NCBI RefSeq assembly: GCF_002192415.1
Contig: NZ_CP021780.1
Location: 744,001 to 808,000, forward strand
DNA: 64,000 bases
Reading direction: 5' to 3'
From: Paenibacillus donghaensis
GTDB taxonomy: Bacteria > Bacillota > Bacilli > Paenibacillales > Paenibacillaceae
Part shown: one piece after another, positions 18,295 to 59,781 of the stretch
Layout: each line of letters begins with the position of its first letter
How positions within the stretch are numbered: the stretch's first letter is position 1
Made by a program: the position numbers and the translations under genes
The notes under the pieces: model-generated
What the model was told of the DNA's origin: nothing
The model's database searches: none
What the model saw: the letters and a program-made list of their open reading frames with translations, nothing else

Positions 18295-18471
18295 GCCCAC
18301 CCAGCATTTCACGTGCAGAACTTAGATGAAATGCGTGAATATCTGCGTCAGAATAATATTCAAGTAATTGATGATGAAGCACGGGCAGATGAAGAGGGGG
18401 GAGAACGCTTCTATTTAAAAGCCCCTTTTGGACCGAGTCTTGAAATAGATGCAAAAGTGGTTACTACTTAG
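18295..18471 (+). pseudogene. C-terminal remnant of a VOC/glyoxalase-family protein
   Basis: The frame reads AHPAFHVQNLDEMREYLRQN then DDEARADEEGGERFYLKAPF and SLEI. This is the last part of a vicinal-oxygen-chelate domain, with the FY..PFG...E end motif. There is no start codon or ribosome binding site and the N-terminal half is missing. The 3' end runs directly into the type A element at 18460, which supplies the stop codon. Confidence 0.6.
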
Positions 18472-18757
18472 GACCCTGCGACACTCCAAGCCCTTGAACT
18501 AGGTAACCTGCATTTTAGCGGACCGTATAGCCCCTATTTCCTCCTATCTGCGATCTTTTGAAGTCTTACGGACCGTATAGCCCCTAAGTCGTCAAAACAG
18601 GCTCAAAAGCGAGGGTTTTCTGTGATATAGAGGCTCCTGGGTCCGTTAATCCTGCAAAACGGCCTATGTACAGCAAATAGAGGCTCCTGAGTCCGCAACC
18701 GTCTGAAATCGAAGTGAGGGTTACGAGCGAAGAGGGCTAGGGGACCTAAGTAGTAAC
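18460..18757. mobile_element. Type A MITE-like element, copy A1
   Basis: A 298-bp element bounded by GTTACTACTTAGGACCC and the inverted GGGACCTAAGTAGTAAC (one mismatch in 17). It is flanked by a perfect 8-bp duplication CAAAAGTG (18452-18459 and 18758-18765). Inside are four copies of a motif of about 22 bp (AAATAGAGGCTCCTGAGTCCGC), two in each orientation. It has no coding capacity. It lies in what was the loop of a type B hairpin. Copy A2 at 59301 is the near-identical reverse complement. Confidence 0.85.
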
Positions 18758-18941
18758 CAAAAGTGCATCTAATTTGCTGATTTTTTCCACTTTGGAGTAA
18801 ATAGTTGCAATATCGCACTTAATCGCCTCCTATCAGAGGTTTCAGTTGAAATTAGTTGCACATTCGCATCTATTTGGTTAAACGTTCCGGAGTAACCTTC
18901 TAAATCTTCGCTGAGACCTAAACTGAGAACTAAGCAGTAAC
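18758..18941. mobile_element. Truncated type B MITE-like element, copy B4
   Basis: This is the right part of a type B element, ending in CTAAGCAGTAAC (inverse of GTTACTGCTTAG). It carries hairpin motifs such as AAATTAGTTGCACATTCGCA. Element A1 sits at its left edge. If A1 and one copy of its target duplication are removed, TAGATGCAAAAGTGCATCTA is restored as an intact type B hairpin. The outer left end of B4 is gone, replaced by the VOC relic. Confidence 0.65.
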
Positions 18942-20777: not shown

Positions 20778-20940
20778 GGTAATCCCCTCCTTGTTATGAG
20801 TTATACTCTATGCCTGTGCAATGGTTGCGTGTGGTGCAGGGCAGAGGACGGTTTAGCAGGGGGTTGCCGAGATTATGAAATAAAAGGTTTGCGTTTCTCG
20901 CCGTACTTTGCTAGCATACGAAGTAATATAATTATCAATT

Positions 20941-21040
20941 AGTTTCCTAGGGTTCCGTTGCCGTTGGCAGGTCTGGTCCGAGGGGAAACACGCGGATAGT
21001 CTTATCCGTGTCTACACGGAGGGACAAAAGCCCGGGAGGA
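20941..21040 (+). promoter_or_regulatory. Guanidine-I (ykkC) riboswitch
   Basis: The ykkC-motif landmarks are present in order: CTAGGGTTCCG, GGTCTGGTCCGAGGG, a variable hairpin (ACGCGGATA...TATCCGTGT), and ACACGGAGGGACAAAAGCCC followed by GGGAGG. The class binds guanidinium and turns on export genes. The downstream SMR pair is the classic guanidinium exporter, so sequence and context agree. The final ACAAAAGCCCGGGAGG overlaps the terminator stem, giving the expected switch. Confidence 0.92.
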
Positions 21041-27641: not shown

Positions 27642-28805
27642 ATGAAAGCCGTCCATTTCGGAGCAGGCAATATCGGCAGAGGGTTTATCGGACTGCTGCT
27701 GTCGCGTTCAGGGTATGAGGTCTGTTTCGTCGATGTGAATGAGGCGGTGGTGGCCGAGCTGAAGCGGCGCGGAGAATATCCGGTGACACTGGCAAGCGGA
27801 AGCCAGGAGACCGTAGTTGTCCACAATGTAACAGCGCTCAGCAGTGTAACGGAAGCGGATCAAGTGGCCACAGCGATTGCAGAGGCCGACCTGGTCACAA
27901 CGGCGGTCGGGGTATCCGTGCTGAAGCATATCGCGGCTGTGCTGGCGGAAGGCATCAAGCGGCGGCTGGCCGTGACTTCGGCACCGCTGCATGTGATCGC
28001 CTGCGAGAACGCCATTGGCGGCAGCTCCCAGCTAAAAGAACTGGTATATGGCCAGCTTGATCAGGCTTTGCACAGCCAGGCTGACGAAACCGTAGCGTTC
28101 CCGGATGCCGCAGTGGACCGGATTGTGCCGCTGCAGCAGCATGAGGATATTCTGAAGGTAGTGGTAGAGCCTTTTTATGAGTGGGCTGTGGACGGGTCGC
28201 GGATGCTGCCCGGCTATCAGCCGGTCGAGGGTGTGCATTATGTGGATGATCTGGAGCCGTACATTGAACGCAAGCTGTTCACGGTTAATACTGGCCACTG
28301 CTCCGCCGCCTATCTTGGGTATCTGCACGGCTGCAACACGATTCAGCAGGTAATGGAGAATGAGCAGCTGACTGCACAGGTTCGTGAAGTATTGGAGGAG
28401 ACCGGGGCGATGCTGGTGCGCAAGCACGGGTTCGATCAGGCAACACATCAACAATATATCAGCACCATATTGGAGCGTTTCGGCAATCCGGCGCTGACCG
28501 ATGAAGTGTCCCGTGTCGGCCGTTCGCCCATCCGTAAGCTGTCGCCGAATGACCGGCTGGTGTCACCTGCGCTGCAGGCTTATGAAGCCGGACTAGGGTA
28601 TACCGCGCTTGCGCGTTCAATGGCCGCAGCGCTGCTGTTTGAGTCAGCGGATGATCCCGAGGCCGCTGAGCTGGCGGCTTCTATCAGGGACATCGACGTG
28701 GCCGCGGCGCTCACGAAGGTTAGCGGAATCGCAGCGGAGCATCCGGTGCACCAGGCGGTGATGGCGGAATACGCCAAGCTGAAGCAGCAGCCGTCCCAAG
28801 TATAA
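27642..28805 (+). CDS. mtlD: Mannitol-1-phosphate 5-dehydrogenase
   Basis: A 387-residue NAD-dependent dehydrogenase. The N-terminal KAVHFGAGNIGRGFIGLLL is the Rossmann dinucleotide loop of MtlD. The catalytic Lys helix region is KLFTVNTGHCSAAYLGYLHG. It oxidises mannitol-1-phosphate to fructose-6-phosphate. ATG 27642 fits AAGGAGGG at 27626-27633 (8 nt) better than GTG 27636. It is the last gene of the operon; a type B element starts 7 bp after its stop. Confidence 0.92.
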   Translation: MKAVHFGAGNIGRGFIGLLLSRSGYEVCFVDVNEAVVAELKRRGEYPVTLASGSQETVVVHNVTALSSVTEADQVATAIAEADLVTTAVGVSVLKHIAAVLAEGIKRRLAVTSAPLHVIACENAIGGSSQLKELVYGQLDQALHSQADETVAFPDAAVDRIVPLQQHEDILKVVVEPFYEWAVDGSRMLPGYQPVEGVHYVDDLEPYIERKLFTVNTGHCSAAYLGYLHGCNTIQQVMENEQLTAQVREVLEETGAMLVRKHGFDQATHQQYISTILERFGNPALTDEVSRVGRSPIRKLSPNDRLVSPALQAYEAGLGYTALARSMAAALLFESADDPEAAELAASIRDIDVAAALTKVSGIAAEHPVHQAVMAEYAKLKQQPSQV

Positions 28806-28812
28806 AATTAAA

Positions 28813-29121
28813 GTTACTGCTTAGGACTCCTCAGGCTGTAATCAGCAAAGACTTAGCTTCTGGAACGCCACATCCGTCCAGCCGCCGAATTAGTTGCGAA
28901 TCTGCATCTATTTAGCCGATTTTTTCCGTTTTAGAGCAAATAAGTGCGAAAACGCATCTAATTTTGGATTTGGAGCGCTAGAGAATCGATTTACGCGTAA
29001 ATAGTTGCAGATACGCACTTATTTGCCCGTAACAGGAGTTTTCACTGAAATTAGATGCAGTTTCGCATCTAATTTCTCTGAGTGCAGCACTCTACACCCC
29101 CAGTAGGACCTAAGTAGTAAC
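28813..29121. mobile_element. Type B MITE-like element, copy B2
   Basis: A 309-bp element with ends GTTACTGCTTAGGAC and GGACCTAAGTAGTAAC. It carries four hairpin motifs of about 26 bp: AATTAGTTGCGAATCTGCAT, AAATAAGTGCGAAAACGCAT, AAATAGTTGCAGATACGCAC and AATTAGATGCAGTTTCGCAT, each continued by CTAAT/TTATT. It has no coding capacity. A target duplication is not clear. Confidence 0.75.
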
Positions 29122-29143
29122 AGTATAAATAGGCAATTGGAAA

Positions 29144-38346: not shown

Positions 38347-38697
38347 CTCACGGACCTAGGAGCCCCTATTTGCTGTAAAAAGGCCATTTTGCGGGCTTAA
38401 CGGACTCAGGAGCACCTATTTAGGCAAAACCCCACTAGTTAGGGCCTATTTTATTGACATAGGGGTTATGCGGTCCGCTAGACTCCAAACCATTGCAGGA
38501 ATGAGGAAATAGGAGCTATACGATCCGCTATGACGTGGGTTACCTGAAGTTCGGGTGGGGGAGTGGGTTTGGGTTAATGTAGCATCGATCCACGTGTAAT
38601 TCCTCCAGTTCGTTATTCAGTCTTCCCGGCCATCACAACTTGCCTTACATAACATTCCAGTAACCTTCTATATCCTCACAGGGTTTTAAGTAGTAAC
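38347..38697. mobile_element. Degenerate type A/B composite element
   Basis: Four decayed type A motifs (ACCTAGGAGCCCCTATTTGC, GGAGCACCTATTT, GGGGTTATGCGGTCCGC, GGAGCTATACGATCCGC) keep the order seen in A2. The right side resembles a type B end (CCAGTAACCTTCTATATC, also seen in B4) and closes with TTAAGTAGTAAC. The left terminal repeat is lost. Confidence 0.5.
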
Positions 38698-46665: not shown

Positions 46666-46964
46666 GTTACTACTTAGGTTCATGCGAGGATCGTTCGGAG
46701 TAAATTAGGTGCAAAACTGCAACTAATTTACTCCGAATCGCAAGCCAGGAGGTAATTAAGTGCGTTTCTGCAACTAATTTCGAGTGAATCAGGATTATTA
46801 CGCTCAAGTGCCCAAATTAGATGCCCTTTTGCACTTATTTCCTCCAAAACGGATAAAATTGGCTAATTAGATGCAGATTTGCAACTAAATCGGTGGAATG
46901 GGCTTACGAACCATCATGGAGTTGAGTCTTTGATGCCCTTATCATGCGAGGCCTAAGTAGTAAC
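46666..46964. mobile_element. Type B MITE-like element, copy B3, inside the yqe operon
   Basis: A 299-bp element with ends GTTACTACTTAGG and CCTAAGTAGTAAC. It is flanked by the perfect 7-bp duplication AGTTAGG (46659-46665 and 46965-46971). It holds four hairpin motifs, for example AATTAGGTGCAAAACTGCAA and AATTAGATGCAGATTTGCAA. It sits between aroE and yhbY, genes that are normally closely spaced in one operon. Confidence 0.85.
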
Positions 46965-59149: not shown

Positions 59150-59157
59150 CAAATACG

Positions 59158-59781
59158 GTTACTGCTTAGGCCACGGTTATGATGAGAACATCGAAGACTC
59201 CGCTCCATGACAGTTTCCTAAATCCGAACCGTGATTTAGTTGCAAAAGTGCATCTAATTTGCGAATTTTCTCCGTTTTAGAGGAAATAAGTGCAAATATG
59301 GTTACTACTTAGGTCCCCTAGCCCTCTTCGCTCGTAACCCTCGCTTCGATTTCAGACGGTTGCGGACTCAGGAGCCTCTATTTGCTGTAAATAAGCCGTT
59401 TTGCAGGATTAACGGACCCAGGAGCCTCTATATCACAGAAAACCCTCGCTTTTGAGCCTGTTTTGACGACTTAGGGGCTATACGGTCCGTAAGACTTCAA
59501 AAGATCGCAGATAGGAGGAAATAGGGGCTATACGGTCCGCTAAAATGCAGGTTACCTAGTTCAAGGGCTTGGAGTCTCGCAGGGCCTAAGTAGTAACCAA
59601 ATACGCATCTAATTCAGCGGTTTTTTCTGTTTTAGAGCAAATAAGTGTGAAAACGCATCTAATTCTCTGAGTAACGGAACTTTAGCCGAGGATTAGCGGC
59701 AGTTTGTCCCCATAGCCACCTACGGGTTAATCCTTAGTAAGTTGAAACGTACATCAGAGGGCGTGGGTCCTAAGTAGTAAC
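59158..59781. mobile_element. Type B element B1 carrying nested A2
   Basis: Outer ends GTTACTGCTTAGG and CCTAAGTAGTAAC bound 624 bp. Removing A2 and one target copy leaves about 319 bp, the normal type B size. Hairpin motifs TTAGTTGCAAAAGTGCATCTAA, split here as TTAGTTGCAAAAG + TGCATCTAA, and others lie on either side of A2. The flanks CAAATACG / CGGTTTCG agree at only four of eight positions. Confidence 0.7.
59301..59597. mobile_element. Type A MITE-like element, copy A2 (nested)
   Basis: A 297-bp element, reverse complement of A1 with four substitutions and a one-base indel by eye (about 98% identity). Ends GTTACTACTTAGGTCCC and GGCCTAAGTAGTAAC. The flanking duplication is CAAATATG / CAAATACG (7 of 8). 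It interrupts a type B hairpin loop. Confidence 0.85.

Follow-up and report, generated by a model that had tools for sequence, protein, structure and literature searches.

As judged from sequence comparison, the short gene-less elements of this genome are probably MITEs of an ISBst12-like insertion sequence (IS) of the IS66 family, which mostly insert at the centres of dyads, and one class of which, class B, would multiply the landing sites. The window, that is, the whole stretch of 64,000 nucleotides that was analysed, covers bases 744001–808000 of a single contig of 8,542,333 bp. End motifs of the GTTACTRCTTAGG type (up to two mismatches) occur 13 times in it, compared to 1.3 expected and to 4 in the highest of 100 shuffles. 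Four clean elements with ends GTTACTRCTTAGG are present, together with a 440-bp composite and remnants. The features are the following.

18444–18459, no strand assigned: left half of an occupied target dyad, AATAGATG, with the left 8-bp duplication CAAAAGTG (18452–18459)
18460–18757, forward strand: class A MITE, 298 bp, ends GTTACTACTTAGG/CCTAAGTAGTAAC, the class A exemplar
18758–18941, reverse strand: right duplication CAAAAGTG (18758–18765), right half-dyad and remainder of the class B host
28813–29121, reverse strand: class B MITE, 309 bp
38350–38697, no strand assigned: degenerate class C-like remnant, terminus TTTAAGTAGTAAC (2 mismatches)
46666–46964, forward strand: class B MITE, 299 bp, flanked by AGTTAGG
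59158–59597, no strand assigned: three-ended composite, 440 bp, with a class B-like left part (dyad 59236–59257) and a nested class A element
59301–59597, reverse strand: class A MITE, 297 bp, sitting in a class B-like dyad, flanks CAAATATG/CAAATACG (one mismatch)
59606–59781, no strand assigned: outer host remnant, class B-like with dyad 59641–59662, then class D-like (59683–59781)

The elements starting at 18460 (298 bp), 28813 (309 bp), 46666 (299 bp) and 59301 (297 bp) fit the preliminary description of non-coding elements with common ends. That description had also taken 59158 as the start of an element of 290–320 bp; instead, this end pairs with the right end at 59597 to delimit the composite, which has an exact 8-bp duplication, CAAATACG, at 59150–59157 and 59598–59605. 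The span given there as 18452–18941 takes in what remains of a Type B host (18766–18941). This host remainder has two further dyads, at 18801–18822 and 18852–18873, and a right end with one mismatch at 18929–18941. The left part of this host is missing (window 18300–18460), and by eye the left dyad arm abuts the apparent 3' end of a glyoxalase-like gene. The two class A copies of the window, 59301–59597 and 18460–18757, are 98.3% identical. Four dyads are found in each of the two complete class B elements, at 28890–28911, 28940–28961, 29001–29022 and 29051–29072 in the first and starting at 46705, 46756, 46817 and 46867 in the second. The first is flanked by AGTATAAA at 28799–28806 and 29122–29129, with 6 extra bases on the left side. 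The class D-like remnant at 59683–59781 terminates in a right end (59769–59781).

The ends are consistent throughout the genome, as the mobile-element reading had anticipated. Exact GTTACTRCTTAGG occurs 370 times in 8.54 Mb, while the reversed control gives 0 and each of 39 relatives at most 1; within one mismatch the numbers are 592 and 38 for the genome and the control, respectively. The A form, GTTACTACTTAGG, occurs 307 times, the next highest counts among 394 genomes of the family (this one included) being 24 and 19. The exact two-ended pattern with a gap of 245–275 bp, a range that misses class C and most of class B, was found in 0 of 99 other genomes of the genus. Exact ends number 2 to 19 in each of the IS66-bearing genomes (26 handles, some being the same genome twice). 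Other genomes (G355, G427, G334, G426) also contain six short elements, of 153–392 bp, whose ends are identical or almost identical (L379–L384), and four of the six are flanked by 8- or 9-bp duplications within one mismatch.

The DNA read amounts to 1,924,000 bases, consisting of targeted stretches, 80 regularly spaced stretches (1.59 Mb) and the window. Elements were called when paired ends with up to three mismatches each lay less than 4 kb apart and were flanked by an 8-bp duplication with up to two mismatches, with no more than four mismatches in total. This yields 61 elements in 1.92 Mb, a biased count, as the targeted stretches were picked from listed ends; 38 of the 61 come from the regular part. 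The duplication is exact in 40 cases and has one mismatch in 14 and two in 7. With ends of up to two mismatches, 39 exact pairs are found at a length of 8 bp and no more than 1 at each of the lengths 5–7 and 9–12. Of the duplications of 7–8 bp proposed earlier, 8 bp is thus the rule, while the element at 46666 does have an exact 7-mer, AGTTAGG. An uninterrupted paralogous target is present in the DNA read for 36 of the 61 elements, at 72–97% identity (at least 80% for 26 of the 36), and the best of them is identical at 126 of 130 positions without gaps.

Clustering separates the 61 elements into A (15), B (10), C (10), D (7), IS66 (3) and 16 singles, so that at least four classes exist where two types had been distinguished. 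Two of the three IS66 entries are IS copies, and the third is a class B element with one of these copies inside it. Under a looser assignment the numbers are A 19, B 13, C 11, D 10, IS66 3 (the identical three) and other 5. The classes are all gene-less, with approximate lengths of 298 bp (A), 308 bp (B), 424 bp (C) and 280 bp (D). Classes A and C are related internally (77% over 218 bp); for the other class exemplars, the common sequence is limited to the ends at E <0.001. The IS and the MITE classes match over 16–26 bp at the ends, and beyond the ends no match is longer than 16 bp, which does not point to an origin by internal deletion. The elements lack a transposase gene, have a precise target duplication and paralogous empty sites, and share their ends with an autonomous element of the same genome; the term MITE is used here for these common ends rather than for demonstrated descent.

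Eleven of the 61 elements hold one or two additional internal ends (up to one mismatch). Seven three-ended elements have their own flanking duplication within one mismatch, namely those at genome positions 40614, 142510, 473785, 803158, 2377490, 4572356 and 6660179, the 440-bp copy of the window being among them. Such composites may have arisen either by the transposase pairing an outer with an inner end, or by right-end recombination that deleted one. A different arrangement, with ends 3.6 kb apart (467273–470857) around ORFs that by eye are glycosyltransferase-like and peptidase-like, was taken as two unrelated elements.

We now consider where the transposase comes from. Three long IS66-family ORFs are found in the genome, which are 100, 100 and 86% identical to the query, in addition to a partial match at 26%. 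They belong to three elements outside the window, of 1602, 1603 and 1627 bp, each filled by a single open frame of 509–518 aa. The transposase is 501 aa long in two of the copies, and the third copy is 86% identical. It matches the IS66 domain DDE_Tnp_IS66 (PF03050, 169.1 bits, cut-off 23.1), the zinc finger (PF13005, 34.2 bits, cut-off 27.3) and NF033517 (308.8 bits, cut-off 180), and there is one ORF without accessory tnpA or tnpB, as in the ISBst12 group. The family ends bound these copies directly, with one mismatch at one end in two of them, and the exact 8-bp duplications CAAAAAGG, CGATATCG and CACTTTTG each lie at a dyad centre. The three intact copies are thus the probable source of the transposase for the gene-less classes. 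We infer that this transposase would mobilise all four in trans through their 13-bp ends, GTTACTRCTTAGG. The earlier suggestion that common ends reflect one transposase, located beyond the window and able to mobilise several types, agrees with this. Among the families then listed as possible sources (IS66, ISL3, IS256 and IS1595), IS66 fits, and a probable source can now be named.

Other transposase genes do occur inside single elements, and one of them, of the IS256, IS4, IS3 or IS110 family, could in principle move the whole family instead. One IS256 gene is enclosed by GTTACT ends, one of which has a mismatch, and the ends are flanked by an exact duplication, CGAAAGTG; other class D-like elements contain genes that by eye are IS4-like and IS3-like, and a class C-like element contains an IS110 gene. 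However, the other two long IS256 copies have no enclosing pair of ends both within one mismatch, whereas each of the three IS66 copies is filled by its ORF and IS66 elements with such ends occur in 16 other genomes, the latter from loci of an IS66 search, which is blind to other families. We therefore consider a source other than IS66 highly improbable. IS256 was rejected as the source on these grounds, and the flanks of the element enclosing IS110 (130320–132512) are mismatched; the IS256, IS4-like, IS3-like and IS110 genes are all taken as passengers. The class D-like elements that contain other ISs are L070 (IS256) and those at 4457856–4459687 and 8475928–8477442 (IS4-like and IS3-like by eye). 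An open frame of 365 aa is present in all three long IS256 copies, and the rest of the gene is seemingly in another frame in the one copy that was read; it seems as if a single frame-broken copy had spread. A search of the genome for Y1_Tnp, the transposase type of REP/RAYT systems, gave five matches, four in 133-aa frames with nearly equal scores (L369–L372) and one broken (L373).

The insertion site follows a clear pattern. Most insertions have duplicated the central 8 bp of a dyad, AWTAGNNN-[C N6 G]-NNNCTAWT, which means a fixed insertion point inside a repeated palindrome, as is seen with REP-targeting ISs. Both half-sites have at least four of the five core letters at 35 of 51 sites (up to one mismatch in the duplication and two in the ends). 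For all elements the number is 40 of 61, distributed as A 14/19, B 6/13, C 9/11, D 6/10, IS66 3/3 and other 2/5. Neither half-site is present in 4 of the 13 insertion sites of class B elements. The joined flanks match a host across the junction for 43 of the 61 insertions. Class B is the best match in all 43, and A, C, D and IS66 in 0, with a host set of 21 B copies and 8 exemplars of other classes that somewhat favours B.

The same preference is seen in other genomes. IS66 relatives that are 46–51% identical to the transposase and have the same or nearly the same ends occur in other Bacillota. From 105 loci of IS66 relatives, 41 distinct sites were kept, with both ends and the duplication each within one mismatch; the loci dropped were missing a criterion, were cut by contig ends (including P. 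ferrarius) or were repeats. Twenty-eight of the sites, in 16 genomes and with proteins of 46–51% identity, are GTTACT-ended. They are not all independent, 7 coming from a single Alicyclobacillus genome and 3 from P. faecis. Among their 56 half-sites, 31 have at least four of the five core letters, as do 2.8% of control positions; both halves pass at 10 sites, at least one at 21 and neither at 7. The mean dyad score is 5.14 out of 10, compared to 2.55 (sd 0.27) for random positions within the same loci, and 0 of 2000 draws are as high. The 13 GTAA-ended sister sites have no dyad preference (2.38 versus 2.58). In a tree of 31 transposases, left from 42 after removal of near-copies, the GTTACT-ended (19) and GTAA-ended (12) groups split at 100/100. 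A held-out set of 14 fetched loci, of which 2 had already been seen and 3 had no duplication within one mismatch, leaves 9 sites in 5 genomes: 5 in two previously unused genomes (G430, G355) and 4 new ones in genomes already used. Both halves pass at 7 of these 9 sites, 16 of the 18 half-sites pass, and the dyad score is 4.89 versus 2.58. The GTTACT-ended clade of IS66 transposases thus prefers dyad centres as targets.

The target also resembles the ends of the element. In the outward direction, the profile of the target reads G NNN CTA W T(T) and the element tip G TTA CTA C TT. The tip GTTACTACTT fits best at register −1, with p ca 0.010 against the profile of the other species and 0.007 against that of this genome, a modest resemblance (p ca 0.01), obtained from trials of six registers and four tips. 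The sister-group tip GTAACTATTC gives ca 2.5e-5 and 4e-4, respectively, while the rarer tip GTTACTGCTT fits poorly in the same register (0.13 and 0.09). The ends of this family start with GTTACT, those of the sister clade with GTAACT and those of ISDge4 with GTGACT/GTAACT. In view of this similarity between the half-site, G NNN CTA W TT, and the tip, the transposase would most likely bind the target as if it were a pair of the element's own ends, and insert with an 8-bp stagger at the centre of AWTAGNNN-[C N6 G]-NNNCTAWT. For the same reason, a single DNA-binding domain may read both ends and target.

It is class B that carries these targets. In the consensus of 21 B copies the dyads start 0, 51, 112 and 162 bp from the first, a spacing of ca 50/61/50 bp, and the information content is 1.76 bits in the ends, 1.78 in the dyad arms, 1.49 in the centres and 1.18 in the spacers. 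An end motif is no more than 300 bp away for 191 of 205 dyads, compared to 17.8% of the bases. The preliminary description had these motifs as hairpins and as cargo of Type B. They are dyads whose arms usually do not pair by type (same-type arms in 25 of 205 versus 69.6 expected if independent, for copies that share descent), and rather than cargo they are the target site of the whole family. An RNA function was also considered and set aside: the heterotypic arms speak against a conserved RNA hairpin, and the one Rfam match of the window is unrelated. That match, the sole one at the gathering threshold, is a Guanidine-I riboswitch at 20936–21040 (84.8 bits, gathering 63). A strict scan of the A, C and D clusters found no dyad with an 8-bp centre. 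Related dyads are present in some class A and D copies, where the centres measure 9 and 7 bp, and no insertion matched A or D best. The strict dyad occurs 356 times in this genome and 0–2 times in each of 59 others, and on these counts a genus-wide origin of the dyad was rejected. Since class B carries four dyads, every B insertion would make four new landing sites. It is in these B dyads that elements of classes A, C and D, copies of the IS and some B elements nest, probably mostly outside genes, as seen by eye in the window.

Different readings of the target and of the class B dyads have to be weighed against this. The transposase might respond to a cruciform or hairpin structure and not to the letters of the half-site, the CTAWT core being merely what local palindromes consist of. 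Dyad symmetry with differing arms in several species (P. eucommiae TTTAACGA/TCGTTAAA, P. faecis AATTCCTG/CAGGTATT, C. cholangitidis AATAGCGG/CCGCTATT) and the high mean dyad score in other genomes are in line with this, and a P. eucommiae site with neither half-site, a near-perfect palindrome without the full core, fits shape recognition better. However, the arms in this genome are mostly heterotypic, the core is found in one half only at 11 of the 28 sites elsewhere, and it lies at a constant distance from the cut, so that we regard recognition of structure as unlikely. Far less probable still, and indeed scarcely credible, is that insertion is random and that copies persist only in harmless repeats. 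The window elements are located between long ORFs, by eye, as such survivorship would have it, yet most insertions share one exact register at the dyad centre, including those in other genomes and at held-out sites. The reading that is harder to dismiss, although we still hold it to be somewhat unlikely, is that the four B dyads mainly bind the transposase or a host protein, aiding the movement of B or acting on transcription, with landing as a by-product. The dyads are as conserved as the ends, their spacings of ca 50/61/50 bp are close to whole helical turns, and similarly spaced palindrome arrays without family ends occur in other genomes. On the other hand, landing in B is no rare by-product, class B being the best host match for 43 of the 61 insertions, and A, C and D also spread without 8-bp-centred dyads (strict scan).

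The palindrome AATAGYG-N9-12-CRCTATT is found in 168 of 392 genomes of the order and 0 times in this one. Many of the 168 have counts of 1 or 2, comparable to those of the reversed control (0–3), and the top counts are 33, 29 and 20. In 20 stretches that were read, arrays are present in G136, in one of G261 and in G204, many of them ca 50–63 bp apart, while six of G240 have single palindromes; the 20 stretches contain one near-end motif. Near-perfect palindrome arrays such as ATAGCGGAA...TTCCGCTAT, with spacers that are unlike by eye and without transposon ends, were seen in L355–L360 and L365 (G136, G261, G204) and in L339 and L347. One idea is that class B arose when IS66 ends came to enclose an array of this kind.

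Returning to the MITE reading, we infer that carrying targets has been selected for. A more speculative extension, which we put forward tentatively and consider somewhat less likely than not, is a self-feeding ecology: the IS66 clade targets mock end pairs, and in this species an older family-wide array would have been enclosed by IS66 ends, giving a MITE that multiplies landing sites and draws insertions into itself, away from genes. Dozens of natural insertions reveal the target rule, which holds on unused sites and is limited to one clade among the relatives tested. This makes the transposase suitable for testing whether a target can be recognised by end-mimicry. A target-carrying MITE also suggests how non-autonomous elements can reach hundreds of copies with little damage to genes, as well as a route to three-ended composites, and the palindrome arrays of other Paenibacillaceae may be explained in the same way.

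To our knowledge, little is known about the target choice of IS66-family elements. A literature search by titles and the starts of abstracts, with most subscription papers outside it, turned up no paper on MITEs of IS66 in Paenibacillus or on palindrome targeting by IS66. BIMEs and REPINs are clustered palindromes between genes that are used as IS targets; the arrays described here differ from them in being bounded by transposon ends with 8-bp duplications.

REP-targeting has been reported for IS3, IS110, IS4, IS256 and IS5 (Tobes and Pareja 2006, PMC1525189), with 0 occurrences of the term IS66. One of the examples, ISRm22, is inserted at the palindrome axis with 6-bp repeats (PMC1525189). 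These ISs resemble the present family in using a fixed point in a repeated palindrome, while palindromes on MITEs with the same ends are undescribed in the accessible part of that source (PMC1525189). IS30 has two kinds of target, hot spots that are nearly palindromic and the inverted repeats of IS30 itself, and is similar in that the target resembles a pair of ends; it differs in its 2-bp duplication and transposase family, and the accessible part of the account describes no MITE class that bears hot spots (PMC9333248). ISDge4 is a member of the ISBst12 group of IS66 with a single ORF, ends GTGACTACTCAGCA/GTAACTGCTCAGCA and an 8-bp duplication, like the present element in its single ORF and duplication and with similar ends (here GTTACTACTTAGG), with no palindromic target or MITEs mentioned for it in the part of the report available (PMC12898284). 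ISBst12-type copies are also listed in Geobacillus (PMC8024623). MITEPsy1, finally, is short and gene-less, has ends in common with an IS and is thought to be mobilised in trans (PMC3189936). The present MITEs are likewise short and gene-less with IS-type ends, but compared to bacterial MITEs of the MITEPsy1 type, as far as the accessible part of that source describes them (PMC3189936), this family has four classes, hundreds of ends and one class with target arrays.
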